A stretch of 64,000 nucleotides of DNA from Gyrodactylus bullatarudis (Eukaryota > Platyhelminthes > Monogenea > Gyrodactylidea > Gyrodactylidae), in contig SSNU01000042.1 in assembly GCA_012064415.1 (NCBI GenBank), positions 157,822-221,821 of the forward strand. Reading direction: 5' to 3'. The translations under genes and the position numbers were made by a program. Below the pieces are notes generated by a model. It was not told the DNA's origin and made no database searches. It saw only the letters and a program-made list of their open reading frames with translations. The stretch's first letter is position 1, and every line of letters starts with the position of its first letter. This document shows, piece by piece, positions 2,099 to 63,119 of this stretch.

Positions 2099-2280
2099 TG
2101 TTCTGTATCAAAAAGGACCTTGACACTGATGAGTTTGAACTCTCTGGTTCTCACAATAAAGCTTTAAGTAATCAATTTTTCACATTTAGTTACAGTTTGT
2201 TTTTGTTCTATTCTATACTGCGTTCACTCAAATACACTTATGATTTGAATAGATTTTTGACAAAAAAGAATAGGATTTTA

Positions 2281-2529
2281 AACCTACTAGCAAAGTGGGA
2301 TCACTGGTTATTACTATATCCATGTGAATCTAACTTGAAGGAGATTGTCTTCTCACACCTAGATGTCAGATTTCGGATAAGCAAGTGTCAATTTCATAAG
2401 AGAGTCAAATAATATTCAACTCACGGTGGCAGATGTAGACGCGTTTCGTCCTTATTAAGACTTGTCAGTACACCATAGCCAGGATTCGAACGTTGTGAGG
2501 CAACGCTTCTAACCACTAGGCCAGAACCC
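2281..2529 (-). mobile_element. Hammerhead/tRNA-like element, left arm of an inverted pair
   Basis: This 249-bp segment is the reverse complement of 2609-2857, essentially without mismatch by eye, with a spacer of about 79 bp. Read on the minus strand it holds a tRNA-like A box and B box followed by a hammerhead-like core. The near identity of the arms suggests a recent inverted duplication or gene conversion. Its outer end continues no further than 2281. Confidence 0.8.
2425..2480 (-). ncRNA. Hammerhead ribozyme-like motif (probably impaired)
   Basis: Mirror copy of the motif at 2658-2713, read on the minus strand. It has the same CTGACAA core, where the hammerhead consensus is CTGANGA, so catalysis is doubtful. 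Confidence 0.55.
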
Positions 2530-2591
2530 CCGTTTTTCTCCTATTACTCGACACTCCCATAGTATTGACACCACCTGTACACTGGTTTTTT

Positions 2592-2901
2592 GTAAATAAA
2601 CACCATGTGGGTTCTGGCCTAGTGGTTAGAAGCGTTGCCTCACAACGTTCGAATCCTGGCTATGGTGTACTGACAAGTCTTAATAAGGACGAAACGCGTC
2701 TACATCTGCCACCGTGAGTTGAATATTATTTGACTCTCTTATGAAATTGACACTTGCTTATCCGAAATCTGACATCTAGGTGTGAGAAGACAATCTCCTT
2801 CAAGTTAGATTCACATGGATATAGTAATAACCAGTGATCCCACTTTGCTAGTAGGTTCAATGTCTAAAAACACTGTAATTTCCACATGGTGCTTATTTAC
2901 A
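2592..2901 (+). mobile_element. Short TIR element with tRNA-like head and hammerhead motif
   Basis: The interval is bounded by near-perfect inverted ends of about 20 bp (GTAAATAAACACCATGTGG at the left, its complement with one change at the right). Inside are a strong A box (TGGCCTAGTGG, 2615-2625) and B box (GTTCGAATCC, 2647-2656), spaced as in a tRNA-derived pol III promoter, then a hammerhead-like motif at 2658-2713. It encodes no protein. tRNA-headed SINE-like repeats with hammerheads are known from schistosome Sm-alpha satellites; that this copy also has terminal inverted repeats is an observation from this sequence. The terminal exon of the micro-exon gene A runs into it. Confidence 0.7.
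2658..2713 (+). ncRNA. Hammerhead ribozyme-like motif
   Basis: Layout is stem I 5' strand GGTGTA, core CTGACAA, stem II GTCT...GGAC, GAAA, a short self-complementary CGCG stem III, a GTC cleavage triplet, then TACATC, which pairs with GGTGTA (one wobble). An outer GGC/GCC pair extends stem I past an internal loop. The core reads CAA where GA is expected in CUGANGA, so activity is probably reduced or lost. Confidence 0.6.
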
Positions 2902-5369
2902 AGAATAGGACTTTTTGACACGAGAGCTTTATTTGAAATTTCATCTTCTCCTTCTTTTCTGTCTCCTTGATGCAACTGCCCTTCTGACTCTGAAATTGAA
3001 AGTGGAATTTAAGAATCGGCCCCTGAATCTCTATGGTATCTGTTTCTTTCTTCAAAAACATTTACTTACCGCCTTCTGATGATCTTTCTTCAGAATTGAA
3101 AAGTTTACAAAATTCTAAACAAATTCATACTTTCTTATCCTTCTTCTGCGAGCTCTAAATGAGAAAAAAGTAATTGTAATTAGCTCAAACAGTTAGCCCT
3201 GAATAATATCTAAGTAAACTGATAAGGTTTATTGACACTGCAATTATATGTTGAAGTCTTGAACTGATAATGTTTCTTTTTGGAGTAGAGAAATTCGTAA
3301 GGATTACTTACTGGTTGCGCTTGCCCATTGGTCTAATCAATGTTATAAGCTACATTCAAAGCAGATAAACTCACACATTCGAGCGCAATCTTGTTTAAAA
3401 AAGATGAAATTTTAAAGGTTGATTATCGTTTTTAGTGATACTGAATTTTAAGAACAAAAGAGTGAAGCTAAGATCAAACTTTGAAGAAGAAACCTCAAGA
3501 AACGATGAACTCACGTATTTCTAGCAGGTCTAGTTAATTAAAAACGAATTTCTGATTATAGTTCTCTGAACAAGGCATCAAAGAGTCTTTTTCTGGTACA
3601 GAATAATCATCTATGATATCCTTAAACTCACGCAGGCCTAGTTGATTAAAATTGAAATTTTATTAAATGTCTGACCAACTACTAATCGGAAATTGTTTTT
3701 GAAAGAGACTCAGAAAGGTTAAATCGAGAAAAGTTTTTTTCTGGTACATAAAATTTGTTTGAAAAAGAAAATTTTATAAATAAATAACCCAATTATAGTT
3801 TCATGAGTGAAAAGGGTTGATTCTAGTTATAAGAATATAGTGCTTTTATTTATACATGAAAGAGTGATATCCCTATCACGTTAGACTCTGTAATCTGGCT
3901 AATAGTAATAACGATAGAAATTATGTACAAGGGAGTGGGTAGTCTTACTGTAATTGAAAACACAATTATATCAACTAAAAAGAGAGATTAAAGAGTTTCT
4001 CTTTCGAAATGAACCCAATTAGTGTTAGAAAATGATTCATCAGCAGCAAAAATATATTCAAGTTAGTTGAAATGGATTTCGAATGTTGATTTTAGATTTC
4101 GTAGTGTTTCACATCATTCACAGAAGAAAACAATAAATCGGATTGATATATCTTTGGAATATTCTTCATTAACTCACGTAGTTGAAACAGTTCTGGTTAT
4201 GAGTTTCAGAAAAGATGAGTTTCATTTATATTTTTTCAACTGCAATAATATCCATTAGAAATATTTAGTTCTAGGTTCTTAGATTCGTCTTATTTGGACA
4301 AAACGCGCGTATATGTCTACCAAAGATGTATTTCTCTGATGATCTGTGAGTTTCTTTCGTACTATAGTCACGGTGGGATCCATTATAAGACAAACCTGTG
4401 AGATATATATTATCTAAGCACCTAGAAGAAAATATTTAATCTTTGTAAGTATAGATGCTACACAATTCATTAATAATATCCGTTAACTCACGTATTTGGC
4501 TCAGGTCTTGTTACAAATTAAGTTTCAAATTCTTGGTCTACTCATTGGGTTTGATAGGCTGTTTTTATTGTTGCTCGATTTATATTTTGATGTATTTAAA
4601 ATTGAAACAGGAACCTTGGTCGGAAATCATACGTCAAAAGATATATTTTTATGCCTGTTCGCAATCAGATAGCGTAAAACTATTAGCAGATTAAAAACTG
4701 ACTCTACATGTGTCATTCAAGTACACAAAATCATCTTTTAACTCATGTATAATACAGTCGGAACCAAAACTCGATGGCCACCCCAGTCCGAAGAAAAAAG
4801 AGCGTATAAAATAAACAAAAGTACCGAAATTTCACAAGGAATTCATTGGTGCATTCAGTTTTCCTTTTAATTCGCGTTTTTAAAATTTACAAGTACAAAA
4901 AATTGAGTTTTTTAAAGCTTTATTGCGAGGTTCAGAGAGTTTTTAGAGAATTCAAAAGCATCTAAGTGTATAAAAGAGAAGGCCCTTTTTCATAGGAACA
5001 TTAAAGTTTCCCTTCAAAGGCACTCTAGAAAAACCTGTTTTATGTAGGTCTACTTGTAAGCGACCGATAAAAATCAGGGTTTTTGATCACATAGTGAAGG
5101 GGCGTGAATCAATTATGCGTTCACTCGAGCTTCAAATGGGCAAGTATGAAAGATAAAAAAGTGCGGATTTCATAAATAGTCAGGGCAAGAAAATCAGTTC
5201 ATCAGATCACAAGTGATTGGATCTTGAAATCCAGATCATGTTTTTATTGAAAATCTCTATATTGTATATGGCTCAGGTTTAATTGAATAAAATTTTAATT
5301 AAAATCAAAGTAGGGAAATGAGAAAAGAAACTTTTTATCTAGAATATTACTCACGCATTTGCAGCAGGT
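2811..5369 (-). CDS. Micro-exon gene A, 3' part (5-residue repeat exons)
   Basis: I do not recognise the product. On the minus strand I read donor/acceptor pairs defining exons at 5355-5369, 4492-4506, 4178-4192, 3632-3637, 3515-3529, 3375-3389, 3312-3332, 3070-3114 and 2811-2989 (lengths 15, 15, 15, 6, 15, 15, 21, 45 and 179 nt). All begin with two bases that complete a codon and, except the last, end with one base of the next, so each can be skipped without a frame change. Joined, they read without a stop. The 15-nt exons encode related units: LLQM, LSQI, LFQL and LLEI, each closed by a split codon. The last exon is acidic (SEGQLHQGDRKEGEDE) and ends inside the inserted TIR/hammerhead element, so its present C-terminus is element-derived. 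The 5' end is not found; a Penelope-like fragment lies directly upstream. The architecture resembles flatworm micro-exon genes, most of whose products are secreted. Acceptors were chosen by eye; RNA evidence is needed. Confidence 0.5.
4257..4437 (+). mobile_element. Internally deleted hammerhead/TIR element
   Basis: The ends AGTTCTAGGTTCTTAGA and TCTAAGCACCTAGAA are inverted repeats matching the ends of the element at 17873-18173. The inner right part (CGCGTATATGTCTACC, then TGTGAGTTTCTTTCGTAC and GGTGGGATCCA) is also shared. The tRNA-like head and the 5' half of the hammerhead are missing, leaving only GGACAAAACGCGCG. It sits in an intron of micro-exon gene A. Confidence 0.7.
4755..5275 (-). 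repeat. Interspersed repeat A, copy 2 (inverted)
   Basis: Reverse-complement copy of the repeat at 1047-1594, diverged by a few percent and small indels. It lies in an intron of micro-exon gene A between the exons at 4492-4506 and 5355-5369. Confidence 0.75.
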
Positions 5370-5549: not shown

Positions 5550-6540
5550 GCCATTAGAGAAGCATTCAGAAGATTGGTATGATAGTGTTTCAAACATTTC
5601 ATTCATCTTTACCGATAAGGTTGTATATCTCCATTATGTCAGTTTTAGTCCAGCTTCACATAAAGTTGGCTTAGTAATTGGTCTAGGAAAGAGAATACGG
5701 AGGATTGCTAGTCTGGAAGAAATACCAAAAGAAATAGAGTCGGCGAAGTCTTGTTTAATGGGAAATGGTTATTCAGCCAAATTTGTGGACAAGTTCATCA
5801 ATCAACCTTTGGTTAGAGATGAGGTTGTCAATACAGAGGAAGGCAAGAAAACAAAATTTTTCATGAAACTTAACTTCAAAGGTGATGGTTTTAGTAATGA
5901 TGTTAGGAGAAGACTCAATAATCTCATCGATCAACATTATGATAATATACAATTGAAAATTGTATCTAAAACCCAAAGATTTTTCAGTTTGATTCATAAG
6001 GATTTACTAAAGCCTAAAGAAAAGACTCCTTTGATTTACAAATTCCGATGTGACTGTGGAGCTTCTTATATAGGACGTACGATTAGGAAATTTTCAACTA
6101 GGTCAAATGATCATCTAAAGAAGGATACAGCGGTGACAAGACAAATCAAACAGGAAAATCATGAGGCTTCGATTTCTAATTTCTCAATTTTGTATTAAAA
6201 TGCGGGTGATGACAGCACGGATTTGTGGGTGAAGGAGAAATTCTTCATCAATCACTTTAAACCAAACCTGTGTGTTCAGAAAAATTACTCTTATAATCTT
6301 CAATTACCCTGGCCTATGTGAGCATTTTCACCTTTCTCTTCACTGTTGCTATTAATTGAAGAGTTTTGGTGTTTTTTCAGCTCACATTATATTCTTATAT
6401 TTTTCAACTTTTACTATACTTCTTTCAAATGAATTTGTAAAATATCATTTTCAATCAAATTTTAACTTTTATCATTATTCATGTGTTACTACTGATGAAC
6501 TATAAAGAAATGTACATTTGGTGAATAAAACTTTTTCTTC
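5550..6540 (+). mobile_element. Penelope-like element, 3' fragment with GIY-YIG domain and hammerhead tail
   Basis: From about 5560 one frame reads through the C-terminal part of a Penelope-like polyprotein: a segment with SPASHK and LVIGLGKR typical of the end of the reverse transcriptase, a linker, then the GIY-YIG endonuclease (CDCGASYIGRT, then R and H at the usual spacing) and a conserved tail ending NLQLPWPM. An in-frame TAA at 6196-6198 breaks the endonuclease where the copy at 18556-19170 has a lysine codon, and the 5' two thirds of the element are absent, so this is a dead fragment. The 3' untranslated tail carries a hammerhead-like core. It inserted between micro-exon genes A and B. 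Confidence 0.85.
6486..6526 (+). ncRNA. Hammerhead ribozyme-like motif in Penelope-like tail
   Basis: The core CTGATGA (6492-6498) is followed after 8 nt by GAAA (6507-6510), the self-complementary TGTACA and an ATT cleavage triplet. TTACTA before the core pairs with TGGTGA after the triplet (six pairs, two wobbles), as expected for stem I. Stem II is very weak. Minimal hammerheads are known in the terminal repeats of Penelope-like elements. Confidence 0.65.
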
Positions 6541-15900: not shown

Positions 15901-18900
15901 TTACAAGCTGTCTTATCTCACTAGGAAGAAGATACTTGACTACTTCAGTACCGAAGTAACGTCTGGAAGAGGCTTTGGGACTATAAGTGGGTTATATTCC
16001 AATTACAAATCTACATTTACTAATGTTTATTGCCATGAAATGTTTAGTCTCACTGATGTTCATAGTAACTGTGGAAAATGGTAAACTTTTCCTACAAAAT
16101 AAAGCTTCTCACTCTTTTCGGACATAGTCGACCCTTTGATTCGAGCCATTATCACAAATCAACCCCATTGCTTACCATCCCAATCTGATGTTTTTCTATA
16201 AGGGATCTTCCTATTGAATAAAGTCACTCACTGAAAAACATGAACTCTAATCCGATAGGGTACAATGATTAGAGAGAAACAAGATCAACGTACCGTTTAC
16301 TCATGAATGTATGCCTTTTTCAAACGGATAAATCGGTTCATTATAATGCATACGTTGGCTTAAGCTGATTACTCGGGATCCTTGATCCGATTAAAAATAC
16401 AAGCCAAATTAAAACATACATTGTTGTTAGCAGCCTTGATTGTGGGTTGTTAAATGTTAATATACCTTTTGCAGTTCGTCAAGGAAGATATGAAATTCGA
16501 TAAGGAATTCGCGAAATTCATCAAGGAATAGTATTTTAAAATGTCATCATTGAAGGAAGATATGAAATTCAATAGAGGAGTTGTGAGAAACGATATGGAA
16601 TTAAAGCAAATCATTAAGGAATATTCATCAAGTTTTATTCGTCAATCAAAGATATCAATCCTTCGCTTGCAAGGGGACAAAATTAAGATACAAATTACTT
16701 TAAATGTATTGAATAAATTCAATTATCTCAATTAGTCTTCTGATTGGTAAGCTGTATTGGATAGATGAATTTAGTCTGGTTTTGTGTGAAGATTGGTCTC
16801 AATTCATTAATCACATGGGAGTGCCATATTCAACCGCTTACAAATGAATCTGCAATCCTAGAGAGAGTTTACCTCGAAGAAGAATGGTTGTTGATATCAA
16901 TGATTAATGTCAAAAAACGCCTCAAGTTCTTCAAAGCTTAATTGATCACATCGAACGTTGAACAATGGAGAAAACATTGACTACCTAAGAGGACAAGATG
17001 GTATTCCTGTTGCTGAATATTGTATGAGGAGACTCTAGGAGATCACAGAGGAAGCCAAATAAACTCTATAGATAAAATAATACAATTCACAAACCATGTG
17101 AAATATTATTATCGTAAGTTATTGCGAAAAGAAGATAAAATTTTCCTTTTATGAATTGCACTAATTCCATATCGTTTCTCACAACTGCCCTATTGAATTT
17201 CATAATGACATTTTAAAATATTATTCCTTAATGAATTTCACGAATTCCTTATTGAATTTCATATCTCCCTTAACGAACTGAAAAAGGTATAGAACTCGTT
17301 TCAAGTGTCAACTTACAAGAAGATAAAATCCCTTGAGAGTGTAAACATTTCAATTGAATCATTGGTCATGATGGGAGACCAGAGTGTATCTTGAACACTT
17401 TCTACTCGAATGAATCATACATCAGAACCATGAAAAATTTGAGCTAGGAATCAAAAGACAAGTTGTTCTGAGTCTTTATGATGAATAACTTACTTGTCGA
17501 AATAACTGCAAGGTATTATTAAGAAAGCATTATGTTTAGGATGTTGTAAAAAGAACTTACCCTTCGAATTTAATACTGTACATAGATTCCCATTACATTT
17601 GAAATGAATGATATGACCTACTCCTTGGGTGAGAACCTATCCGAAACCCATTTAATATGATACATGAATGAATTTACACTCTTAAATCAGGCCTAAAAGC
17701 TCAGTCGGCATCCCATGGTTTCATTGACTTACACAAACTGCCTTATGCTAATGAAATCATGATATATCGAGAGATTTTAATCTGACTTACCAATCTAATC
17801 TCGGATTTTCATTCATTCTATGCATAGTAAAATTTAGATTTTCAACTAATAAGTACTTACAAAGATTAACTATAGAAATATTTTGTTCTATGTGCTTAGG
17901 TAATAAATAACACAGGAACGTCTTATTTGGGTCCGCCTTTTTTTGAGCATTGGATTACAATGCGAGAGGTCCTAGGTTCAAATCCCAGGTTGTGGCATAC
18001 TGACGAGTCCAAAAAAGAGGACGAAACACGCGTATATGTCTACCATTTATGTATACTAAGATTATTTCTAAATGCTTTGTGAGTTTCTTTCGTACCAGTC
18101 TCGGTGGGATCCACTAGTAACCAAAGACGTTCCTGTAGGATATAAGCACCTAAGCACCTAGAATGAAATATTTCTAATAAATACTTAGTTTACAAAGGAA
18201 ATCTTAGATAGCAAACTGCCCAAAAAATGATAAAAACATCAACTCAATCTATTTGAGAGTTAATTTTTATTTTGATAATTCGAATTTATATATCTCTTAC
18301 GCGATATTGAAGCACCTGAAAAAAAGTCAAACGTCCGATGAATAAATAGGCAAGATGAGCCAGTTCTCAGGTGAAGAAGAAAGTTCTCAATCAATTATCT
18401 AATTTTAACTCACTCTAGCTGATAAGTACTACGTTGATGATAATATGATTATCATCGTGACTGAAATATTCACGTTAATTTTCATATACGTCCGAAAATC
18501 TACATACATAAATCATATTTGGAAAATTAGAAAAAAGATATTATATTTGGCCCATATTATGTATCAACATTATAATAACATACAATTGAAAATTGTATTT
18601 AAAACTCAGAGAGTGTTCAATTTGATTCAGAAAGATTTACTGAAACCTGAAGAGAAAACTCTATTGATTTATAAATTCCAATGTGACTGTGGAGCCTCAT
18701 ATATAGGTCGTACAATTAGGAAATTTTCAACTAGAGGGAACGATCATCTTAAGAAAGACACAGCAGTGACTAGGCATCTAAGACAGGAAGGGCATGAAGC
18801 TTCAATCTCAAACTTTTCTATTTTATACAAAAACCCGGGTGATGACAGTACTGATGTTTGGGTGAAGGAGAAATTCTTCATAAATAGATATAAACCAAAC

Positions 18901-21591
18901 TTATGTGTTCAAAAAAACTATTCCTATAACCTTCAACTACCTTGGCCTATGTGAGCTTTTTCACTTTTCTCTCCACTGTTGCTACTTGTTGGAGAGTTTT
19001 GGTGTTTTTTTTTAACTTATATTATATTCTTATATTCTTTGACTTTTACCATTTCTTTCATGATTTGTAAAATATTATTTTGAATGAATTCTCAACTTGT
19101 ATCATTTTTAAAGTATTGCCACTGATGATGCTTTGTGAAATGTACATATGGCCTCAACATATATCTTTTTTCTAATTTTCCAAATAATTGTTATTATAAA
19201 AATCATTTATTTTTAAAATAAAATTTGGGTTAATTCTAAAATTCACCCCAAATTTTTTTTTAATAATAAGAAATAATTTTATTTAATAATTTATCTACCC
19301 TTTTTTCAGCGCTTCATATTCTACGGCTTTTGCACGGTCTTACATATAGTTAAGAACTCTTTTTATTTCACTATTTCGATCTTGAGAAATAAGAAATAAA
19401 TCTTCTTTAAGGATAGCAAGAATTTCTAAGAACCTAGATTCGCGTAAGGTTTTTTCCATCAAAGGTTCTATACAAGGAGAAAGTTCCCTTTCAATCTTTC
19501 TGAAACTTATGTAGGTTGCATGAACAATTTGAATCATTCAATAAGAGGGGAATTTGGAAATGAGAATAATTGAATCGAGGTAAAAAATTGAAATTTTCAT
19601 TGGGTTGATTTCTGAGGTGAATTTTGGAAAAAAATTTCCTTCGGGGTGATTTTTGGAATTAACCCATAAAATTTATTAAAACTTAATATTAGAATTCAGT
19701 GGAATGAAGAACGCGTGTGAAGACAAGTTTTAATAAATTTTAATGTAAAACTAATTTTAGATTATTTTTCACTGATTCAAAAAGATTATTCTTAAGAAAT
19801 GAAATGTTGGTCATACTGTCCTTACCATATCTTTCCATCTCTCATTCTGAAGAATAGAACCATGGGTTAGTACATTGTGAAACATCAAAAAGTTTTAATT
19901 GAAGCAAGTTTACATACAATTTTTGTAAAAGAATTCAATTTCGTCAAAAATAGGCTATTTTCTGAATTTCAAAAATGCTACTTCTTCAACGTTTCAACAC
20001 AAAATCTTTTATTTTTTATCGTTTCGCGAAATATTCAAATAATTCCATTCCTCGAACTCTTATACGAATTTGAAATATGGTCAATATCTTTAAATCGATA
20101 ATGCCGATAATGGCCAAAATTTTCTTAAAATTCTTTTTCATCTAACTAATTATTGATCCAAGATATTTTGTATTGAGTGTTTTGTAAATTCTCATAAATT
20201 AACTAAGAAACTTTGCTTTATGAAAATAAAACGTCTTCTATTCGATATTTTTCATTACTTTGTTTATGTTAAAAAAAAGTGAGATTTGTAATCCTTCTTG
20301 AAAATGTTCGTCCAAAAATGGCTTAAACTTACGCCTCTGCATGAAGTAGGCTAAGTAACCGATATATCTTTCCATCAACCCATATGTGAACTTACACTTT
20401 ATCCTTGATCCTTTTAGTATATAGGGATATAGATCGATAAAAACTTGCATTCCTTACTTGTATTCGCCAAAAAAGTTGCCGTTATCAAAAATTCTAAGTT
20501 TTCATTTAGATAGACAAAAAGTGCGACACAAACTTGTAAATTCTACAGTTGAGTAAAAACAACAATAGTTTAAGGTATTGAGAGGCCGACATTACGCACT
20601 CTGTGTTACTGAGAATGAAATTCATGAATAAAATAGCTTCCTTAATTAAACATACTTGTCCCCTCTGAAAGAAAATAATTTACATCGGCTAAAAGTTAAT
20701 TCTCAATCGCCTTTTACACCATCAAGAACTATAGTTCCATAAATGTCATTATATTTCAACTTATTCTTTTTCGTCGTTGGTCAAATAGTTCCCTTATTAT
20801 ACCTTGCTTTACTCTGATTAGACGAAATATTTTAGATATATAAATTGTAAGAGTTTTAAATTAACTTGCCCTGCCCCTGACGAAGATTAAGAACACCATG
20901 AATCTGCTGAGATATGTGGTTTTGACAAAAAAACCATCAGCTATTATATGAGTTAGGTGCAAAGAATTCTAGGTAATCAGTTTTATCGGGACAAATTCAG
21001 TCTGTTTGTATTATGTAAAGAACTTACTTCTTTTTTTCATGTCTAATAGATTTGTTCGAATGTTAGTGGTTATCATGATTGGCCCCTACTTCCTTCTTTA
21101 CATTGATAAACAAATGATTTTTATGTTCTCTTAACAAATAAACCAGTCATAGTCACAAATGTCCACGAATCGGATCAATTGAAAATGAATTGTTAATTAA
21201 CAAAAACTAACTTCAAGTTTTCCTTGCTTGAGTTTCTATAAGAAATTTTCATCTTTAACTCTATCTACTATTGAGTAATAAAGGGTTAACAGGCAGTATG
21301 ATTGAACTTACTTTTTCCCTCTATAAATTCATTTTAAAAAAATTGAAATCATTCAATGGAAAGGCCATTTGCTCACAGATTTTTGAAAATGTTTTTTCTT
21401 AAATACAAATCCAAGAATTAAATCATCATTTAGGAATTACATCTATGTAATACAAACAAACAGTGTATTCAAGGCAATAATAATTGTTAGTACGACATGA
21501 GGGATCCGGATGAAAGCTCGGTCAATATTTAATTAGAAAACGTCTTTTTTTGTTTAAGCATATTAGTTTGAAAGGCTTACAGTTCCACCAT
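6991..21591 (-). CDS. Micro-exon gene B: about 36 internal mini-exons plus a 65-codon terminal exon
   Basis: Product unknown. Minus-strand exons read from donor/acceptor pairs: 21581-21591 (possible start ATG GTG GAA CT), 21312-21320, 21028-21042, 20656-20664, 20396-20410, 20333-20350, 19826-19846, 18414-18428, 18301-18315, 17791-17799, 17733-17747, 17561-17575, 17494-17505, 17317-17331, 14886-14894, 14672-14680, 13963-13980, 13871-13882, 13566-13574, 13402-13413, 12567-12584 (doubtful), 12507-12521, 12433-12468, 11153-11170, 11091-11108, 10842-10874, 10790-10804, 10610-10621, 10420-10443, 10365-10379, 10306-10323, 10096-10104, 8766-8813, 8574-8597, 8291-8296, 7805-7819, 7257-7268 and 6991-7186. 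Internal exons are 6-48 nt, multiples of three, each starting with one base and ending with two bases of split codons. Joined they are open throughout unless 12567-12584 is included, which makes TAG. Representative pieces: IPDDLYNDTR, YAGSLPN, PNGNKTF. The last exon is polar and rich in Ser/Asp/Tyr (MSDDDQSTSRSNYSRD), ending QGPSNE. The start is insecure and I see no signal peptide. Introns hold at least six mobile elements. Confidence 0.55.
7269..7800. other. Intron sequence of micro-exon gene B
   Basis: AT-rich sequence between the mini-exons at 7257-7268 and 7805-7819. A possible 8-nt exon near 7340 has a weak donor and would break the frame, so it was not called. Confidence 0.3.
9120..9340 (+). 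repeat. Repeat A, partial copy
   Basis: A diverged copy of the distal half of repeat A, ending with GGACTGGGGTG and a TCCGACTGTATC terminus. It lies in an intron of micro-exon gene B. Confidence 0.6.
11471..12024 (+). mobile_element. 554-bp element with 34-bp perfect inverted termini and a small ORF
   Basis: TGACTAATGGTCATGCTGGT begins the left end and its complement closes the right end; about 34 bp match without a gap. The interior is less AT-rich than its surroundings and holds a plus-strand frame starting near 11477, probably from the ATG at 11483, and ending in TAA at 11807-11809. Its product is Thr/Pro/basic, with a C-terminal QQIHKFFTANKQ that resembles a degenerate PCNA-interacting (PIP-box-like) motif. 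A TATATATA run and an AATAAA lie near the right end. No transposase is visible. It sits in an intron of micro-exon gene B. Superfamily unknown; no clear target-site duplication was found. Confidence 0.7.
12640..12990. repeat. Foldback repeat, copy 1
   Basis: Arms containing AATTTTTATTGATTTGAAAG and its inverted counterpart flank a centre with GAATTTCGATTTTTTAATCA. The same organisation recurs at 39735-40139 and 52170-52520, so this is a foldback or MITE-like family. Non-coding; lies in an intron of micro-exon gene B. Confidence 0.65.
14728..14747 (+). repeat. Poly-T tract
   Basis: A run of about 18 T residues after CGCGGGG. It may mark the tail of an unrecognised minus-strand retroinsertion, but no element body is identified. 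Confidence 0.5.
15537..15685. repeat. Small imperfect inverted repeat
   Basis: AAATCAAGCATTTCTTTCTT on the left is matched in inverted orientation by AAGAAAGAAATGCTTGATTC about 95 bp later. Non-coding, in the large exon-free stretch of micro-exon gene B. Confidence 0.5.
16459..17292. mobile_element. Foldback/TIR element, about 830 bp
   Basis: Both ends carry inverted arms of about 140 bp: the left begins TATACCTTTTGCAGTTCGTC and the right ends with its near-complement. Within each arm, AAATTC-x-ATAAGGAATTC-like units are repeated, giving an internally periodic arm. A 64-codon frame at 16541-16735 lies partly in the arm and has no recognisable domain. No transposase seen. Confidence 0.65.
17873..18173 (+). 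mobile_element. TIR element with tRNA-like promoter and intact hammerhead ribozyme
   Basis: About 300 bp. The ends fold back on each other over about 60 bp with small gaps: AGAAATATTTTGTTCTATGT and TGCTTAGGT, then ACAGGAACGTCTTA, are matched in reverse order by AAGACGTTCCTGT, AGCACCTAAGCACCTAGAA and GAAATATTTCT on the right. The interior has a B box with perfect consensus (GGTTCAAATCC, 17975-17985), a degenerate A-box-like GAGCATTGG upstream, then a hammerhead with all conserved core bases at 17994-18040, then a tail with TGTGAGTTTCTTTCGTACC and GGTGGGATCCA shared with the deleted copy at 4257-4437. No coding capacity. It lies in an intron of micro-exon gene B. Known relatives are schistosome Sm-alpha-type SINE-like hammerhead repeats; the long inverted termini are unusual. 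Confidence 0.75.
17994..18040 (+). ncRNA. Hammerhead ribozyme (core complete)
   Basis: Stem I 5' strand GGCATA (17994-17999), core CTGACGA (18000-18006), stem II GTCC/GGAC (18007-18010 with 18019-18022) closing an A-rich loop of 8 nt, GAAA (18023-18026), a short CG-palindromic stem III, cleavage triplet GTA ending at 18034, then TATGTC (18035-18040), which pairs with GGCATA over six positions with one wobble. An outer GG/CC pairing extends stem I past an internal loop. The very short stem III suggests efficient cleavage only in a dimeric or tandem RNA, as in other animal hammerheads. Confidence 0.8.
18556..19170 (+). mobile_element. Penelope-like element, short 3' fragment (GIY-YIG domain)
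   Basis: From about 18556 the sequence matches the Penelope-like fragment at 5940-6540: linker, GIY-YIG endonuclease (CDCGASYIGRT), the GDDSTDVWVKEKFF block and the terminal NLQLPWPM before TGA at 18952-18954, then a similar 3' tail with a hammerhead core. Unlike the first copy, the endonuclease frame here is intact, but everything upstream of the linker is missing. Inserted in an intron of micro-exon gene B, antisense to it. Confidence 0.85.
19118..19152 (+). ncRNA. Hammerhead ribozyme-like motif in Penelope-like tail
   Basis: GCCA, CTGATGA (19122-19128), 8 nt, GAAA (19137-19140), TGTACA, ATA, then TGGC, which pairs with GCCA as stem I (four Watson-Crick pairs). Same layout as the motif at 6486-6526, with compensatory differences in stem I. 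Confidence 0.65.
19226..19666. mobile_element. 441-bp TIR element with 7-bp target-site duplication
   Basis: Inverted ends TGGGTTAATTCTAAAATTCA and, at the right, the complement of TGGGTTAATTCCAAAAATCA. It is flanked by a perfect TAAAATT direct repeat (19219-19225 and 19667-19673). Inside, a minus-strand frame at 19340-19537 encodes 65 charged, helix-prone residues of unknown function. No transposase motif is visible, so it is probably non-autonomous; a 7- or 8-bp duplication is compatible with several cut-and-paste superfamilies. Confidence 0.75.
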
Positions 21592-28413: not shown

Positions 28414-29785
28414 TCATTGTTTACTACAATCTCCACAGAGGACATCTTTTTCCTTGAGAATGAAGCCTTTGCCGACGAGACTTGTCGTACACTTGGAGCA
28501 TTTAAAGCAGTCCGAGTGCCAATTTTTATTCTCAAAGGTGATGAACTTGGTACCGCCGAGGCCTGGGGGGATTAAGAAGAAACCAGTTTAATCTTTATTA
28601 TAAATTTTACTCACGTAAATTTTCAAACACCAAAAGTACATTTCTCAAAGGTTCATCACAGAAGTAGTGTCTCTTTGAGAATAGTAAAAGTTGAAGAACA
28701 AAACTCTCTAGGCCAAGGTAGTTGATGGTAGTTATCGGAATAATTGATCTTGGCCTATGTGAGCTTTTTCACCTTCCTCTCTATTGTGACTAATTCTTCA
28801 AGAGTTTCAGTGTTTAGAACCTTACATTATAATCTTTACTATTTTCAAAGAGAGACACTACTTCTGTGATGAACCTTTGAGAAATGTACATTTGATTTTA
28901 ATATATATAAATTTTATTTCTACTTGAATATTCAAGATTAGGAAATTAAAAAATAAATGGGAAATATGATTGAACTGTCACAAGACTTGTAAAGCTGCTT
29001 AAATAGCAATAACCTAGATGAACTGGGTTCTATTTTTAAATGTTCATTATTAACAATAATTATTTATTTTTAATTCGTGTAGTTGGATGCTGAAATGACT
29101 CACCTGTAATTGCCTGCTGGCATGATTCACATTTTTGGGCAAACAAAAGGGAGTAACAATCTATGCAAAAGGGTTTTTCATCCTTGGTTGTAAACTTTTG
29201 TCCGGCCAGTTCCTTGGTGCAGTTCGCGCAGGTGAAGCAGCTCTTGTGATATGATTCACCTCGATAGGTAATACCACTGTCCTTTATCGGCGATTTACAT
29301 TTGACACATTTTTTCGTATACTTTTCATCGAAGCAAACAATGCAGATGATTTTGTCGTCTTTTGGGACAAAAGATTTCGTCCCAATTGGCTCTTTACACT
29401 CGGAACAGGCGAAACATTCATTATGGAAAGTTTGCCCCTTGTATTCGTACTTCTTTTGACCACCCTTGAAAAGTTCCTTGCAGGAATCACAACGCTGGCC
29501 AAACTTGTTCTCGTGGCACTCTTGACAATAGACATTGTCGTCCTTTAGAAGGAAAGACTTTTCAACTAGAGAAGTCTTGCAATCAATGCATGTGAAGCAT
29601 TCTTCGTGCCAGTGGAACTCTTTGAAAGTTAGCTCTTTACTGTTGGCCTTAATTCGTTCATTACAGAGTTTACAGACGTTGGTAAAGTTTTCCTCATAAC
29701 AGTTTATGCAATACGAAGTGTTCTCATAATCTACGTACTTTTGGCCAGCCAACGGCTTCTCACACTTGTTACAGTTATCTGGCAT
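28414..29785 (-). CDS. FHL: Four-and-a-half LIM domains protein
   Basis: Two exons, 29785-29104 and 28562-28414, joined across a GT-AG intron in phase 1, give 276 residues, the usual FHL length (about 280). In order: an N-terminal half LIM (CNKCEKPL...CINC), then four complete LIM domains starting at VCKLC, RCDSC, KCVKC and KCESC. The zinc-binding Cys/His residues appear complete, for example WHEECFTC, FHNECFAC, YHKSCFTC and WHSDCFKC; the final finger ends LCGDCSKQ. FHL proteins are scaffolds at the actin cytoskeleton, focal adhesions, muscle Z-discs and in the nucleus, binding partners through LIM modules. The start is the first ATG of the first exon in an AAAATGCC context, and the frame has no upstream extension. 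The intron carries inverted Penelope-like tails. Identity is secure; which vertebrate paralogue it corresponds to is not meaningful here. Confidence 0.95.
28625..28915. mobile_element. Two inverted Penelope-like 3' tails in the FHL intron
   Basis: Around 28745-28915 the sequence follows the 3' tail of the Penelope-like fragments (GGCCTATGTGAGCTTTTTCA onward to GAAATGTACATTT), and 28625-28722 carries the same tail in reverse orientation. The arms with TCTCAAAGGTTCATCACAGA and its complement are nearly identical. Each has a hammerhead-like remnant, but the core reads CTGTGATGA, so the ribozyme is damaged. No coding part remains. Confidence 0.7.
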
Positions 29786-40139: not shown

Positions 40140-41465
40140 TTTCCTTAAAAGTTATTTTTTTCTAAATTCTACTTTCAGCCATCTCTCTGGCCCCAGAGCA
40201 AGAATCTACCAAGGAATTAAGGCAATTTTTTGAATTAACTGATTGGTACTATATTCTGGACTTAACCAGATTGATGATTCAATTTGAGCATAACGTATTT
40301 CTCTCAAAAATACTTTTCTAATCGCCGCGAAATCTCAAATGAACTTTTTTGAAAAAGATAATATTTCACCCTACTCAAATATATAATATATCAATTTTCT
40401 CATCAGTTTTAAGCTGATTTACCGATGCTGAATTCATTTCAAGGGAAGAGATGTCAAATTTTTCACAGATAAGGGCCTTTATTTCGGGCATACTCATTAG
40501 TGTGATATATGCCATATATATAGGGGTTTAACAAAATATTTTTTATGATACAATAATCGTTAAAATAACATCGATTAAGAAAATACAATTGAATCTAGCA
40601 AAAATTTGGCCGTTATTCAACCTCTGAGCTCATTGATTTTGAAAATTTAAAGCAATTCAATACAGAAACGTTGGATCAACATTAGTTGAAGAATTCAAAT
40701 TCAATTCCATCTGGAGGTCATTCAATTCTGGGTCATTTCTCTTCGTGATAATCAGGGCGGTCAAAAATATGCTAAAATTTTTGGAATATTTTTATTGAAA
40801 AGCTCCTTTCAACGTCGCAACTTGTGAACTGAAATTTTTTATCAGAGAGCTAATTTCATAAGATTCCTTTTCATGAAAAATAATAAATTTTCACATTGGA
40901 AACAGTGAAAAAATCGATTCAGGCTTAATTTTTCCTCAGTCTTATTAAAATGTGATCTTTTATTTTTAAAGTAACATAGTCGAAACTAATTTCGCATAAT
41001 TTCTCAAAATAGTCTTTTATAGTTGCTCCAATTCATTTTACCTATATCTTGAGAAGATATCATCGAATAGGATAAGGAGATTTTTCAACCAATAATATTA
41101 ATTTGAAACTTGAATTAAATTTCGATTTTTTAAAAATCTTAAATAAAAAAATCAATAATCCCTATGAAAATTCTCATAGTTATAGATTTATGCCAAGAAT
41201 ATTTTTCATTAAAAATCTGATAAATTTTGACTAATCTCACTACTGTGAGTTCAATAAAAAAATATGCTAAATATTCATTTCGACCACCCTGGTGATAATC
41301 AAAAAATTTAAATGGTTCAATCAAGAATTTCTGTGAAATTCTTTAGGGTAATTTGAACTCTTTCATCTAATCCTGATCTGAATTGTTTTAATTCTTCAAG
41401 ATAGATAATAAAATGAGAATCAAGACACTCTTTTCATGAAAATATTCAAAACTATTTATTCTTTT
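40140..41465. other. No gene recognised
   Basis: AT-rich spacer in the lectin cluster. The missing first exon of the damaged lectin should lie just right of 40139, but I do not find a recognisable signal-peptide-coding segment there. Confidence 0.35.
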
Positions 41466-52400: not shown

Positions 52401-55400
52401 TTTGATGAAATTTCGATATTAGGCTTTCTTGTTTTATTTTGATCCTGTAAATCAACTTTTTATCACTCTCTTACTTTGAATTCAATAAAAATTTTGAGGT
52501 CAAAGTTCGAAAAAATTGAGATTATTGCGCCAAATCGAAATTCGAAAATCTTTTTGTCTCTAAATGAGAACTTTCTCAATTCGAAGTGAGAATAGTCTCA
52601 AAAAGTAAATTGAAACTATACTTAAATAAATGTATTTTTCTGCTGAATTTTCAATCAATTTCAGATCTAAAAACTCTTATGAACTGACCCTTAGTCCTGA
52701 CCTCAATACATCAGCTCATACGAATTGGTTCTACTTCAAATGTACTGGTCTGATTGAAGGCGAAACTTATCACTTTTGCATAATAAACTTTTTCAAACAA
52801 AACATTCTGTATAATCGTGGGGGAAAGATATTGGCCATGACAGATTATGACCAAGGCTGGCATAGGACCGGTCACAGTATACGGTAAGAAGTCAATTTCT
52901 CATCACCCCCTGTAGATATGCAAAGAATTTGACAAAAATTAATAGATACATGACAAAGGGTAGGACGTACTACTCACTTTATTGGAGCTATGTGAGTTCT
53001 TTCCTAAGAAACTTGACAATTTTCTAAATAAATTAATAACGCCTTGATTTCGGGCATACCTATAAGTTTGATGTCACCTAAATTTGAAAAACAAACAAAT
53101 ATTTGAATGATTCTACAAATTTTAAGAAGCATGAAGCAAACTCAAGATGGAGCTATTTCGCCCATAGCTATCCCTACACCTACTCAAGACTAAAAAGTAA
53201 AATTCAAAGTTTTCAAACAACCGAAAGAAAGCTGTTCCCAGATGAACATCTCCACTCGAAATGTGAAGCCATCACGGAGACTATGAATGGCAACAAAATT
53301 TTCATGCTAACTGTAACAAACTCAAAGATTGAGGACAAGAGCAAAATCGGTCTCTTCCTCACAAGTCGTGTGCATCCGGGGGAAACGCATTCCTCGTGGA
53401 TAATGGAGGGTTTGATGAAGTACCTCCTGACAGGTAATGGTAACGAAAAGGATCAGCAAAAGATCGCCTGGATAAGGGATCATTTCCTAGTTAAACTCGT
53501 GCCAATGCTCAATCCAGACGGTGTCATTGTTGGCAATCATAGAACTTCAATGTCAGCAGTCGACCTGAATCGTTGCTATAAGAAGCCATCGGCGAGACTT
53601 CACCCAGAAATTTATGCCGTCAAGCATGAATTAAAGAGGATGAACGAAATATGTGGAGTAATTCATACATTCTTTTATAGTTACATTTTCTCTCTGTAGG
53701 ATCACATAATCTATTGTGACATTCATGGTCATAATTGTATGCCGAATGCCTTCTTCTATGGATGCGAGGAAAATTTGCGTGAGAACAGTTTAATCCCACA
53801 AGTGGCGGATCCATTTGATTATCTCAAAGTTAGAATATGGCCGTATTTACTCAATAAAAAGGTAAAAAATACATTTGTACAATTCTTATTGGTGAATGAA
53901 AACCATCCAATTAGAAATCAAATACACTTATTCATTCATTTCACAATTTGTTACAAATTTCAATGAATCATCAATAAAACAGTTTCCCCTCTAAGTTTAA
54001 TGTACTTTGAATCGTGTTGGTCTTCTTATTATCGATGGCATGAAAACTCTTTGTTAAGTTGAGGTTTTTTGCCTCAGATAATATTGATAACTCGTACACA
54101 TTTCAAATGCATCATCCGAAATTATGATAGGATTGAATATAGTAGTTCGATTACAAGAATTCTATCAAATTACATGTTAGAAGAAATAAAGTAATTCATC
54201 GATCATCAATACTTTTATAATACACACGCAATGATTGATTTGTACCAGAGAAAACTTGTACTTGTTTTGATACTCCATTAAAACTCATAGTTTCTTGTCT
54301 ATATTTTCATTGTATTAAAATTGTCTAACGATTTTCTCTAGTTATCGAAGCAGTTTTCATTGAAAAATTCGCGTTTCACCATTAGCCTTGGTAAGGAAGG
54401 CACATCAAGAGTTGTATTTTGGCGAGAATTCAATTTGGTCCACTGTTTCACAATGGAATGTAGCATGTATGGTTATCAGTACAAGTGAGTATTTTGAAAA
54501 TAAATTTGACTCTTGAGAAGTAATTCATACGTTCCTAAAGCTACATCAATCCGTAATCTATATTCGTGTGAATGAATTGTAGTAAATTATAAAATGCGCG
54601 ATAACAACATAGCTACGATTCATTTGATAAAACAAGAAAAATTTTAACATGATTAATTAATCCTGATCTGAGCTTATTTTACTTATGTAATCTAGCAATG
54701 AAATGGTCCCTTTTAACTTGCAAGATTTTGATGAAATGGGAAGAAATCTGATTGAAAGCCTTTCGGATATTCACACCTTCATAAGGAATAGAAATTGGTA
54801 AGAATGATAAATATCTAGAACGTTAATTTTTTCCCATAGGAGAACTGATAAGGCCATGGTTCAATTCGGGGTAAATTTGATACCGATTTTAGAAAAGAAT
54901 GTTCCCATTACTGGTTAGTTTTGGTTTCTCACTCATAACATGTTATACATTGTACATATATATATAGAAAAGAACAAAATCAAGGCATCCCTATGTAATG
55001 AAGGAGACTTTGCGTATTTCTTGAAGTTATTCAAAGTCTGTCAGAGTATCGGTCGTGATCCTATTGCTGGGTTCTCCCTAGAAAATTTGGAGTAATTAAA
55101 TCTTTCTTACTTGGCCATATAGATACAATTTATTTCACACTTTTATAAGCTAACCTGTCTTTTTTACCATTATACAGGTCTGATGTTGATTCAGAATCTG
55201 AGGATGAGCTGTACTCAAATCAGAGTCGTACATCGGTAAAATCAATTTTGAAGCCACCAAAGGAATACAGTGAGACATCTGAGTATAGTACAAATCAGCT
55301 GCGGACAAAACGGATGATTCGCCATTTGAAAGGGGACCGAGTTCGGTTCAAATCGAAGCCGGAAAACTTGACTGACCCCACGCCAAAGTCTCGCAAAAGT

Positions 55401-59624: not shown

Positions 59625-61200
59625 TTATTTAAAAAAGTTAGTAAAATAGTTATGATTATCTGGTACATAAATTGAAATAATAGGAATTATCTGGGAGATC
59701 TTTAGGTTTTTAAAAACATCAAAATTAAGTTGAAATCTGTGTCTTAAGGGATGAAGCGTTGTAAGAAGGATCGTGAAACCTCTAGATGAGCGAAGGTGGT
59801 AATTTCGATTGACAGTATGTGGGATCTTGTGATAGAGTACAGCAGAAAATGCGATTCTTCTCAGCCAGATGGGGTAAAGATCAGCCTTGTCTAAAAGTTG
59901 TTTATATGAGTAAGGGCCAAAGCATGAACGGAGGAATTGAAATTGGAGGTTCTCAGTTTTCTTAATTGTTCCGGCAGGGAGGTTGGAGAGGAGGGAGGCT
60001 CCATAGTCCAGATGGGGTAATATGCACTGCTTAAAAAGGAGTAACCGCAGACTGGGGGAGTGCACAAATTTTCTAAGAAAATAGGATTTGATTCTTAGCG
60101 TTTTGAGAATAGAAGTGGCATGAATCGAGGTGTCAAGTTTATTGGAGTAGTTTAGTCCCAAGTTCTGAATTTGAGATACAATCAAGGGAATGAGGTCCGG
60201 CGTTAATGTAATAGTGGATGATAGGCAGAGAAATTTCGTTTTAATACGATTCAATGATAAGCCGATTTTAGTCAGGGATGCGTCTAAATGTCTAAGTTCA
60301 TCATGAATAATATCTGTGCCGTGTTTGCATGAACATTAGATTTTTATATCATCGGCATACTTGAAGTAAGTTATGTCAGTGGTAGACGGTGTTATCTGGG
60401 AGAAAACAAGATTGAAGAGAGTTGGGCCAATGGTCGATCCTTGTGGAACTCCTGAGCTGATACTGGTATGGGCTGAGCATAAGTTATTGAAAGACACGTA
60501 TCGGGTTCTGTTTTCAAGAAATCCGAGAATAAGGTTGATTATGTAAGGATTGACATGATGGTTGGTCAAGCTATCTTTTATGACGCTGAACGGAAGACGA
60601 TCAAATGCTTTAGAGATGTCTACATAAATAACTACAGCAGGGATACGTTTGTATTTAAGTTTATTGGCCGTGTCTATGAAAGAAACAATGTTTGTTGCAG
60701 TGCTGCGACCTGGAACAAATCCATGTTGTTGCGGATCAATGCTGGTAAGATTGATAGACTTTAAATGTAAGTTGATGAAATTATCAATAATTGAAAGGAA
60801 TATGAGAAAACTAGTGATTGGTCTGAAATCAGAGGGATTTATAGGCTTGGTACATTTAGGGATTGGAATAATTTTGATATTTAGCCAATCCGAAGGGATC
60901 GAGCTCGAGTAAATGATATTCTTGAGGTAATTTGAAAAATGAGAGAAAAAAATATAGGAGAGCGGAATAAGTAAGATATTAGAGATCAGTTTATCATCAC
61001 GACGTTTTATGCTATTTAACAAAACGTCTATAATAATTTCAGGGGAGATAGCAGGAAAGGAGGAAGCTGCGACATCGACTTTCTCAACAGAGGAGGATTG
61101 AGCATAGACTGATGTGAAATGTGTGTTAAGGTCATCCGGTGAGAGGTGTAGTGTGTCAAGATCAAAGTCTTGAGAATAAAAGTAGACACACTCAAAAATA
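59625..61200 (-). pseudogene. Retrotransposon ORF2, RT and C-terminal part
   Basis: Motifs in order: IPIPK, DFRPI, GFVPGRST, VYVDISKAFDRL (RT motif with catalytic Asp), SSGVPQGSTIGP, YFKYADDIK (catalytic YADD), then after a TAA at about 60339-60341 the frame continues with LRHLDASLTK, SLNRIKTKF, PHLDYGASLL and LYPIWLRRIAF. The RT fingers/palm order is standard. The stop after YADD separates the thumb and C-terminal region, so no full RT can be made from this copy. Confidence 0.85.
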
Positions 61201-61615
61201 CATATATCAAATATACATTTAGTATAAAGAACCTCATATTGAATAATAATAATAATAGATTATGAACATATCACATGTGTATACTATGAATATACGAAAT
61301 ACTACACCAAATATCTTATCCTAGGATAGTGTGATGTGTCCCATGAATTAACCAATCAGAAGAGAGTGAATGTCCAGGCTCAAGGTCTATATGAAGATGA
61401 TGCATTCCAGAGGTGAGGTTGAATTCCTTACTGATAGTGACGATGACTAGTTACAATGACCACCACTAAGTCCCAAAAGAAGTCCAATATGAAGATAATG
61501 TTGAAGTTGATGAAGAATATGTCAAATGAACATACAACGTTAAAGAAGAAGATCAATAATATTGAAATGAATAATAATATATCCTATTCTAATGGTAACC
61601 CTCCTTTTAACTATG
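61200..61615. mobile_element. Insertion interrupting retrotransposon ORF2
   Basis: The coding sequence of ORF2 is interrupted between the segment ending NLFRNQS and the segment beginning ECVYFYSQDFD. The intervening 0.4 kb is unrelated in codon pattern, has a (AAT)n run near 61242-61256 and a plus-strand frame from 61456 with a Lys/Asn-rich start (MTTTKSQKKS). It could be a fragment of another retroelement. Exact borders and target duplication not determined. Confidence 0.5.
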
Positions 61616-62400
61616 AGACTGATTACGAAAGAGGTTAGATATGGAGTTTGTGGTCGTGGAAAGATGAGCAAGGTATTTTAGCTTACTCCATGCTCTCTTT
61701 GGGTTAGATTTTAATTCTTCAACGATGGACCTTTCAAATAGGACTTGCGAGGATAGAGATGATGCAACGGAACTATTTTTCGACAATTTAGCAGATTTGT
61801 TTATTAAGGAACAAAATAGAGGGAAATTAAAGTTAGGAAAAAATAGATTGTTCATATGAGAAATACATAGAGAAATAAAGCGGGTAATGTCTGTGACATA
61901 ATGGTCAGTAATAGGGGAGGAGAAATCGAGAGCATCCGGGGAATAATTTGGTAAATTAAAATCGCCGTAAATGATATGCTCGTCTACTGAGGTAGAAATA
62001 TTAGTTTTAATGTTATCAATAATAACTTTTTGTGGATCTGGGGAAGCAGGAGGAGGATTATAGATTAGAAAAATTTGAATCTTTAAACTTGCTGTTGAGA
62101 GAACCATGGAAAGAGTCTCCGAGCTTGATTGAGAAATGAAAACATTCGAGACATCTAATGAATTGTGTACGAAAGCAATAAAACCAGCTCCTTTATGAGA
62201 GATTCTGTCACATCTAAAGCATGAGTAATTAGTAATGGCAAATTCTTGTGATGGATGAGCAGGTTTCAGCCAGGATTCTGTAATAAGGACAAGTGATGGA
62301 GAGTAACGATTGATCATCTGATTTACATAGAAAATTGAATTTAGCAAAGATCTGGCATTCCAAAGGACCATATTATTCCAAGCGAAAAAGTTTATCATCT
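61607..62400 (-). pseudogene. Retrotransposon ORF2, endonuclease part
   Basis: WNARSLLN, ITESWL, GAGFIAFVH and YGDFNLP mark an apurinic/apyrimidinic-type endonuclease as in LINEs. The usual downstream SDH motif is absent and the sequence jumps from TDITRFISLC into a linker region, which indicates an internal deletion. ORF2 probably starts at an ATG close to 62396 overlapping the end of ORF1 in another frame. Confidence 0.8.
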
Positions 62401-63119
62401 TGGTCAGGATCAAGTGGCAACACACGTTTATAGATTGGATTTGGAATAAGAGAAGAGTTATTGGAACTTGATGTTGAAGGACCAAGGTTAGTATGAGATG
62501 ATGAAGGGCCTGATGGAGCGAGATTATTATTAGTTGAGACAGATTGAACAGTTTGATTCTTTTTAGCAGCGATCCAGGCAAGTCTGAAACGATGCTCTGG
62601 GGATCTGAGACGACAAACCACAACATTATCATTTGATAGTTCTTTGTGAATGTTTTGAATAATTTGGCCAGGAAGGTAGTTATTCCCTTTAATAGTTATT
62701 GTAAAACATCCTTTTTTATTTGGTGTGGGGTTGTTGAATGAAGACAAATGATTAGGTGCGTGTTTTTGAACATTGGAGAGTATCTTTATAGAGAGTTGGT
62801 TTGAGTCTGAGTTAGAGTGTGCTAGAATGGTGGAGGAAGGAGTTCTAGCAGGAGGGCGTTGACTAGTAGGAGTCTGTTTTTTTGGAGCCTTGGTGGTACT
62901 AGTATGGTTGTTTGAGCCTGACCGAGAGATATTGTTTTTGAAAGGTTGGGAGTTATGAGCCACAGCGTCCCGGTAGGTGGTTTTAGGAGGGTTTGAAGGC
63001 GAAATAGACAAAGCAGAAAGCTTGTTGGACACAATTGACAGCTGACTTTGTAGCGAAAGAATAATATCAATTAAATCCGAATGAGATAACTTAGAGAGCG
63101 CGGGTACATCAAGCATCAT
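62373..63119 (-). CDS. Retrotransposon ORF1 protein
   Basis: 248 residues from ATG to TAA. The N-terminal 40 residues look helical (SDLIDIILSLQSQLSIVSNKL), followed by a Ser/Thr/Pro/Asn-rich basic region and a folded-looking C-terminal half (GCFTITIKGNNYLPGQIIQN, VVVCRLRSPEHRFRLAWIAAKK) that may bind nucleic acid. There is no CCHC knuckle. Frame intact although the rest of the element is broken. Confidence 0.75.
   Translation of the reverse strand: MMLDVPALSKLSHSDLIDIILSLQSQLSIVSNKLSALSISPSNPPKTTYRDAVAHNSQPFKNNISRSGSNNHTSTTKAPKKQTPTSQRPPARTPSSTILAHSNSDSNQLSIKILSNVQKHAPNHLSSFNNPTPNKKGCFTITIKGNNYLPGQIIQNIHKELSNDNVVVCRLRSPEHRFRLAWIAAKKNQTVQSVSTNNNLAPSGPSSSHTNLGPSTSSSNNSSLIPNPIYKRVLPLDPDQDDKLFRLE

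Follow-up and report, generated by a model that had tools for sequence, protein, structure and literature searches.

The window, a stretch of 64,000 nucleotides from a contig of the monogenean Gyrodactylus bullatarudis, carries a short element at 17860–18173 that combines a B box, a type I hammerhead motif and inverted ends (Table 1). The inverted termini noted in a preliminary description of this DNA are real: 17873–17901 pairs with 18148–18176 over 29 nt at 90%, and a second pair, 17912–17924/18124–18136, matches over 13 nt at 100%. That description also saw a tRNA-like promoter together with a hammerhead in one unit; our analysis supports a repeated mobile unit that holds a tRNA-like B box and a hammerhead. 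It placed the unit at 17873–18173; the element is wider and is enclosed by flanking repeats at 17846–17859 and 18174–18187. The right arm of the window copy is about 35 bp shorter than that of other copies, as judged by a comparison of spacings, and the score of its partial tail (10) falls below the threshold for calling a tail (>12). An open reading frame of the kind found in autonomous Penelope-like elements (PLEs), with reverse transcriptase (RT) and GIY-YIG domains, is absent from the element, whose longest stop-to-stop frame is 60 aa (17900–18082). A transcript of the whole element is predicted to fold end to end (−96.5 kcal/mol, z −5.5), as had been suggested, but any inverted repeat yields such a fold.

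Table 1. Coordinates of the hammerhead SINEs of the window, of their parts and of the nearest Penelope-like element.
Feature	Position	Strand	Basis and remarks
Hammerhead SINE, window copy	17860–18173		B box, type I hammerhead and inverted ends
Left target-site duplication, CTAATAAGTACTTA	17846–17859	+	14-bp direct repeat relative to 18174–18187, 1 mismatch
Right target-site duplication, CTAATAAATACTTA	18174–18187	+	first 3 bases common to the element end
Partial tail, window copy	17860–17872	−	some 11 nt from the 34-bp extension, and 2 nt more; compared with the tails of other copies
Left arm, last 58 bp of the unit, inverted	17873–17930	−	BLAST to the L007 unit, 323–380, 86%
Right arm, sense copy of unit 112–380 (promoter region onward to the 3' end)	17943–18176	+	80% to the L007 unit
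B box, GGTTCAAATCC	17975–17985	+	sequence; agreement with the box consensus
Type I hammerhead	17994–18040	+	Rfam RF00163 (Hammerhead_1), 30 bits; sequence and pairing
Hammerhead stem I	17994–17999/18035–18040		
Hammerhead core, CTGACGA	18000–18006		
Hammerhead stem II	18007–18010/18019–18022		
Hammerhead core, GAAA	18023–18026		
Hammerhead stem III	18026–18033		predicted cut after 18034
Second hammerhead SINE, subfamily 2	2280–2900		arms 2287–2606 (−) and 2609–2851 (+); tail from 2852
Target duplication of the second SINE	2266–2279/2901–2914		1 mismatch
Third hammerhead SINE, subfamily 1, decayed	4258–4471	+	left end inverted and short; tail on the right
Target duplication of the third SINE	4244–4257/4472–4485		1 mismatch
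Neighbouring PLE, 5'-truncated, outside the SINE	18442–19186	+	inverted end and extension about 18442–18557; body about 18563–19186
Endonuclease-type ORF of the neighbouring PLE	18445–18954		40% identical to L056 in the EN region

A tRNA-like pol III promoter is suggested by the B box, but the A box of the window copy (17944–17954) is weak and ARAGORN found no tRNA gene within the window. A B box is present in both subfamilies of the element described below, and a clear A box, TGGCCTAGTGG, only in subfamily 2. By comparison with the box consensus, we tentatively read both as those of a type 2 pol III promoter.

The hammerhead of the window copy has a complete core, all six pairs of stem I and all four of stem II. 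Because stem III contains an A–C mismatch (3 of 4 pairs), the word "intact", used for it in the preliminary description, is too strong. The Rfam model Hammerhead_1 scores 30 bits at 17994–18040 (E 2.6e-5 in a search of 701 bases) and does not reach its gathering score of 34; a scan of the window with Rfam gave no match above gathering. Matches to snR75 also stayed below gathering. The same model exceeds gathering in another locus, L060. Folded in isolation, the hammerheads have ordinary energies (z −0.8 for the window copy, 0.0 for L007 and −1.8 for L085); in L007 and L085 stem III is fully paired. The window copy is old, its tail is partial and its stem III weakened, which counts against the PLE-mediated insertion favoured below.

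Two further hammerhead SINEs lie in the window, at 2280–2900 and 4258–4471, neither with an Rfam match, and each of the three is flanked by a 14-bp repeat with one mismatch. The two arms of the 2280–2900 element match at 243 of 243 aligned positions, and both carry a deletion and an altered hammerhead core. The deletion occurs at six places genome-wide (at most one mismatch), two of which are these arms, and the exact altered core is absent from every other locus fetched. Since the arms agree throughout and have so rare a deletion in common, we conclude that they derive from one template, if gene conversion between the arms is set aside. The presence of the altered core in both arms suggests, as far as sequence can tell, that ribozyme activity may be dispensable for the insertion step.

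The window also holds repeats of other kinds. An inverted repeat at 22620–22787/22833–23000 (99% complementary over 168 nt or more, with a 45-nt spacer; scan ending at 23000) has no match to SINE or PLE queries. To the left of the window SINE, a second one (16461–16550/17202–17291; 90 nt, 91%) has short direct repeats inside it. Remains of a LINE-like element occupy 59625–63119 on the minus strand, with an RVT_1 match (1e-21) and weak endonuclease matches.

Unit, subfamilies and hammerheads across the genome

Candidates for the family were found at 643 places genome-wide, the best 40 of which were scored. Our subfamily-1 set comprises 42 loci (the window copy, L002–L040, L079 and L080), 39 of them from the best 40 of the 643, so the sample is biased towards the window copy. 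For subfamily 2 we studied 25 loci. Loci L075–L078, L079 and L080 had been selected as inverted pairs, whereas L083–L102 form a list-order sample among the places with the subfamily-2 loop type. The two subfamilies have only a block of about 55 bp in common, from the B box to the hammerhead.

Comparison of the copies yields a unit of about 380 bp (range about 370–380 nt) that reads, in the sense direction, leader (the "tail" region), B-box promoter, hammerhead and a 3' part that closes with TTTCTA. The apparent terminal inverted repeat (TIR) is the unit's own 3' end, seen inverted at the opposite side. Recognised inverted ends occur at both sides in 18 of the 42 subfamily-1 loci, the window copy included; no second end was recognised in the other 24, which were excluded from the tests of tails and duplications. 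Copies lacking the termini, which the preliminary description held would show that the termini belong to unrelated flanks, do exist in part, as solo copies, but the termini are part of the unit.

In 7 of the 42 loci (L005, L007, L011, L013, L016, L020 and L021) an arm crosses the unit boundary and is longer than one unit (412–436 nt); long tandem arrays were absent from the stretches read. Because some arms run across the boundary, the template was presumably longer than a monomer, or circular. One insertion, L013, contains three unit ends (at 834, 1206 and 1443) with a common variant that is absent from the other ends listed, as expected from more than one pass over one template.

Hammerheads of this type are numerous. 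An exact pattern of core plus stem II occurs at 290 places (142 forward, 148 reverse) in 77.3 Mb on 471 contigs, and the reversed control pattern at none on either strand in 77 Mb. A genome search with the Rfam hammerhead model, in which 73 of 11,180 candidates were scored, gave 57 matches, 29 over the cut-off. Among 45 distinct hammerheads selected by pattern (core and at least three stem II pairs), stem I is fully paired in 19 of 29 from subfamily 1 and 7 of 16 from subfamily 2. Compensatory change in stem I between the subfamilies was considered and rejected: the commonest sequences differ on both sides in two of six pairs, and the evidence is weak because, when subfamily-2 5' strands are matched to subfamily-1 3' strands, G–U pairs let 221 of 464 combinations still form all six pairs.

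Tails, duplications and inner junctions

Some ends extend 34 bp past the unit boundary, into the leader of the next unit, before unique DNA begins. Among the 18 two-ended elements of subfamily 1, this tail stands at exactly one end in 15, at neither in 3 and at both in none (the second end of L080 scores 12, right at the threshold of >12). The three elements with no adjacent tail are the window copy (partial tail), L015 and L033 (tail match displaced), and they count against insertion by PLE machinery, the explanation that we favour below. In subfamily 2, where tail classes were judged by eye from BLAST extents, 8 of the 12 elements with two ends have a single tail of 45–54 bp, and none of the 12 is tailed at both; 3 have a partial tail of 31 nt at one end and 1 has none. 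Both subfamilies together have one full tail in 23 of 30 elements and two tails never, whereas independent ends would predict 14.2. The excess of one-tailed elements has P = 0.003 in subfamily 1, 0.10 in subfamily 2 and 0.001 combined.

These counts bear on self-primed (snap-back) synthesis, in which a cDNA would fold back and copy its own strand into the inverted second arm. Such a process would account for the rare changes common to both arms of the 2280–2900 element (243/243), and self-priming, with an antisense template, has been proposed for rotifer PLEs in a passage of PMC3846280. It should leave a tail at both ends, however, which is seen in 0 of 30 elements, and the tail-less end begins near the unit boundary. 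We consider snap-back synthesis improbable, if the best of the alternatives to PLE-mediated insertion.

The flanks of the elements carry direct repeats. Repeats scoring at least 10 flank 9 of 18 subfamily-1 elements, compared with 1 of 306 mismatched pairings, and 6 of 20 subfamily-2 elements, compared with 0 of 380; L083, L090, L092, L093 and L099, whose ends are unclear, were omitted from the latter test. The nine subfamily-1 repeats measure 11–14 bp and lie just outside the tail on one side and the unit boundary on the other. No repeat reaching this score flanks the remaining 9 of 18 and 14 of 20 elements, which speaks against PLE-mediated insertion. The solo copy L084 is 5'-truncated and tailed and has no recognised inverted end, yet it shows an exact 13-bp target duplication, so the inverted arm is not obligatory. 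In the list-order sample of subfamily 2 (L083–L102), an inverted second arm is present in 6 of 20 loci, a frequency that also weighs against the explanation we prefer.

The inner junction, or inversion breakpoint, differs in 20 of 20 tabulated elements (entered by hand from part of the 42 loci, a few with partial coordinates). Pairs of hammerhead cores less than 500 bp apart point outward in 6 of 6 cases among the matches listed (100 of the 290 places). For the older copies of subfamily 1 the case for one template behind both arms is weaker: over the last 45 nt, median identity is 0.956 within and 0.891 between elements. An end's own partner is its best match over these 45 nt for only 13 of 36 subfamily-1 ends, with 8 tied, a further observation unfavourable to PLE-mediated insertion.

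Penelope-like elements and the route of insertion

The PLE nearest to the window SINE is about 270 bp away. It has inverted arms of 26 nt (18516–18541/19161–19186) and no clear target duplication, and its ORF gave no Pfam hit above cut-off. With its endonuclease fragment as query, 3773 candidate places were found genome-wide, of which 150 were scored. The frames of L049 contain RT and GIY-YIG domains, both over their cut-offs; in L056 and L057 the RT is over the cut-off and GIY-YIG just below (21.7 vs 22.6 bits). The PLE at L061 has inverted ends of 97.6% identity, several PLE copies show an extension at one end (not a systematic count), and exact flanking repeats of 11–12 bp occur in 3 of 5 PLEs (L061, L064 and L074, and not the PLE of the window or L072), a proportion given without a null. 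The 3' motif of the PLEs is found at 40 places, all listed, and its pairs less than 3 kb apart point outward in 6 of 6 cases. Other PLE remnants in the window lie at 5625–6521, 28700–28908, 40401–40518 and 53035–53072, the last two as short matches.

The PLE 3' ends (window 19112–19166; L056 1048–1122; L060 2667–2746) contain a strongly conserved hammerhead-like block, consisting of CTGATGA, 8 nt (a spacing set by the pattern), GAAA, a palindrome at the place of stem III and a paired stem I, with no evident stem II. Rfam found no such hammerhead in the 18 loci searched, except the SINE hammerhead of L060.

The SINE units were compared with 28 endonuclease-hit sequences, a set that omitted L041, L044, L046, L054, L060 and L061, and had no sequence in common with them beyond the SINE copy of L045 and short or weak matches. 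Among these 28 PLE sequences, therefore, no partner of the SINE could be recognised by common sequence or by a common tail, which counts against PLE-mediated insertion. Two candidates for an autonomous partner were rejected: L060 is read as a PLE inserted within a hammerhead element, and L061 as a PLE lying beside part of one.

Very probably the window element is a non-autonomous SINE of the metazoan non-LTR retrozyme type, equipped with a hammerhead and a tRNA-like promoter, that a PLE inserted with its reverse transcriptase and endonuclease. The observations behind this conclusion are the architecture of the copies, their target duplications, the tail on one side, the differing junctions and the presence in the genome of PLEs built alike. 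As described in passages on Anolis PAc (PMC11167929) and Adineta Pen2a (PMC3846280), PLEs have head-to-head inverted copies, an optional tail of about 31–40 bp at one end, duplications of about 8–12 bp, 5' truncation, partial tandems and a type I hammerhead, all of which the SINE resembles; unlike them, it has no ORF, carries a tRNA-like B box and measures about 380 bp per unit. Against the tails of 30–40 bp given in that material, the 34 bp of subfamily 1 is similar and the 45–54 bp of subfamily 2 longer. With the metazoan non-LTR retrozymes, in the part of PMC7229834 drawn on here, it shares a type I hammerhead, an ORF-less unit of a few hundred bp, partial tandem units and the presence of PLEs in the same genome, but the SINE copies examined are dispersed, often inverted and have PLE-type ends. 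By description, it can also be likened to the schistosome SMalpha and Sjalpha SINEs (Ferbeyre 1998, Laha 2000, via a section of PMC8490949), which have a type I hammerhead and a flatworm host; the SMalpha-like unit W36.2, of a W-element family, is given there as 335 bp. A flatworm host is likely here too, since a LIM protein encoded in the window had a single hit, from Echinostoma caproni (57%).

Mobilisation by a LINE instead of a PLE seems distinctly unlikely. The window does contain a LINE-like RT (60336–61022, RVT_1 E 1e-21), and one review counts both LINEs and PLEs among the possible helpers (excerpt of PMC11722881). It is the PLEs of this genome, however, that the SINE matches in its one-sided tail, head-to-head arms and duplications of about 12 bp. 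Twin priming by a LINE would not place the same 3' end at both sides.

We give still less credence to a DNA transposon resembling a miniature inverted-repeat transposable element (MITE) that captured a hammerhead SINE and was moved by a transposase. The inverted ends at both sides of 18 of 42 subfamily-1 loci and the fairly constant length of the flanking repeats, about 12 bp, would suit it. The movement by a transposase acting on TIRs that the preliminary description offered is nevertheless contradicted by the asymmetry of the ends (the 34-bp tail at one end only in 15 of 18), by the duplicated target of solo L084 with no recognised inverted end, by the differing junctions (20/20) and by arms that exceed one unit, which is what copying from a concatemer or circle would give. 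With asymmetric ends, differing junctions and solo copies, the elements lack the equivalent ends and the inheritance as one unit by which a TIR transposon or MITE would be recognised. Inverted repeats are a recognised assembly hazard, but it is extremely improbable that the elements are inverted chimeras of assembly: the close pairs diverge in 12 of 12 cases, the tail is one-sided, and the pairs are flanked by matching duplications.

PLE-mediated insertion draws on biochemical precedent. In the portions of PMC11167929 used here, a purified PLE protein is reported to cut both strands and extend them, reverse transcription starts at two adjacent internal sites, the genomic tail of 30–40 bp is the stretch between them, and hammerhead mutants still insert in vitro. 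Inverted pLTRs, one of them with a 31-bp tail, and duplications of 8–10 bp are reported in an excerpt of PMC3846280.

The putative order of steps begins with pol III transcripts that would span one or more units of about 370–380 nt, and the hammerhead could cut multi-unit transcripts into monomers. A PLE protein acting in trans would then bind the SINE RNA, make cuts about 12 bp apart in the two target strands and prime from both free ends. Copying at one end would start near the unit boundary, and at the other end at a second site, 34 nt (subfamily 1) or 45–54 nt (subfamily 2) further on. Both copies would run inward and meet in a head-to-head join of variable position; the product would have inverted ends, a one-sided tail and a duplication of about 12 bp. 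One start site for each target end fits the data, because a tail is found at one end and never at both. We give even chances to the specific proposal that a single SINE RNA, concatemeric or circular, is held by the PLE machinery at two start sites, each of which is primed from one of the two cut target ends.

The preliminary description supposed that the combination of features may be undescribed. This is partly wrong, since PLEs with hammerheads and inverted pLTRs are described in passages of PMC11167929 and PMC3846280. Among the papers listed in our literature search, none reports PLE-type ends on hammerhead SINEs in its title or the opening of its abstract. PLEs are called "likely candidates" as helpers of animal retrozymes in part of PMC7761336 and are listed among the possible helpers in PMC11722881, likewise from an excerpt.

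If the reading with two start sites is true, full insertions take the form of head-to-head inverted copies with a single tail, one process accounts for both the inverted pLTR and the optional tail of PLEs, and PLEs mobilise retrozymes. The rule of one tail per insertion (23 of 30, never two) may connect the RT start sites seen in vitro with the inverted copies found in genomes. The helper question becomes testable in this genome, which contains 290 exact hammerhead cores as well as 3773 candidate places for a PLE endonuclease. PLE-type ends on a hammerhead SINE are structural evidence for a partnership that, in the parts of the reviews considered here, has so far only been proposed.
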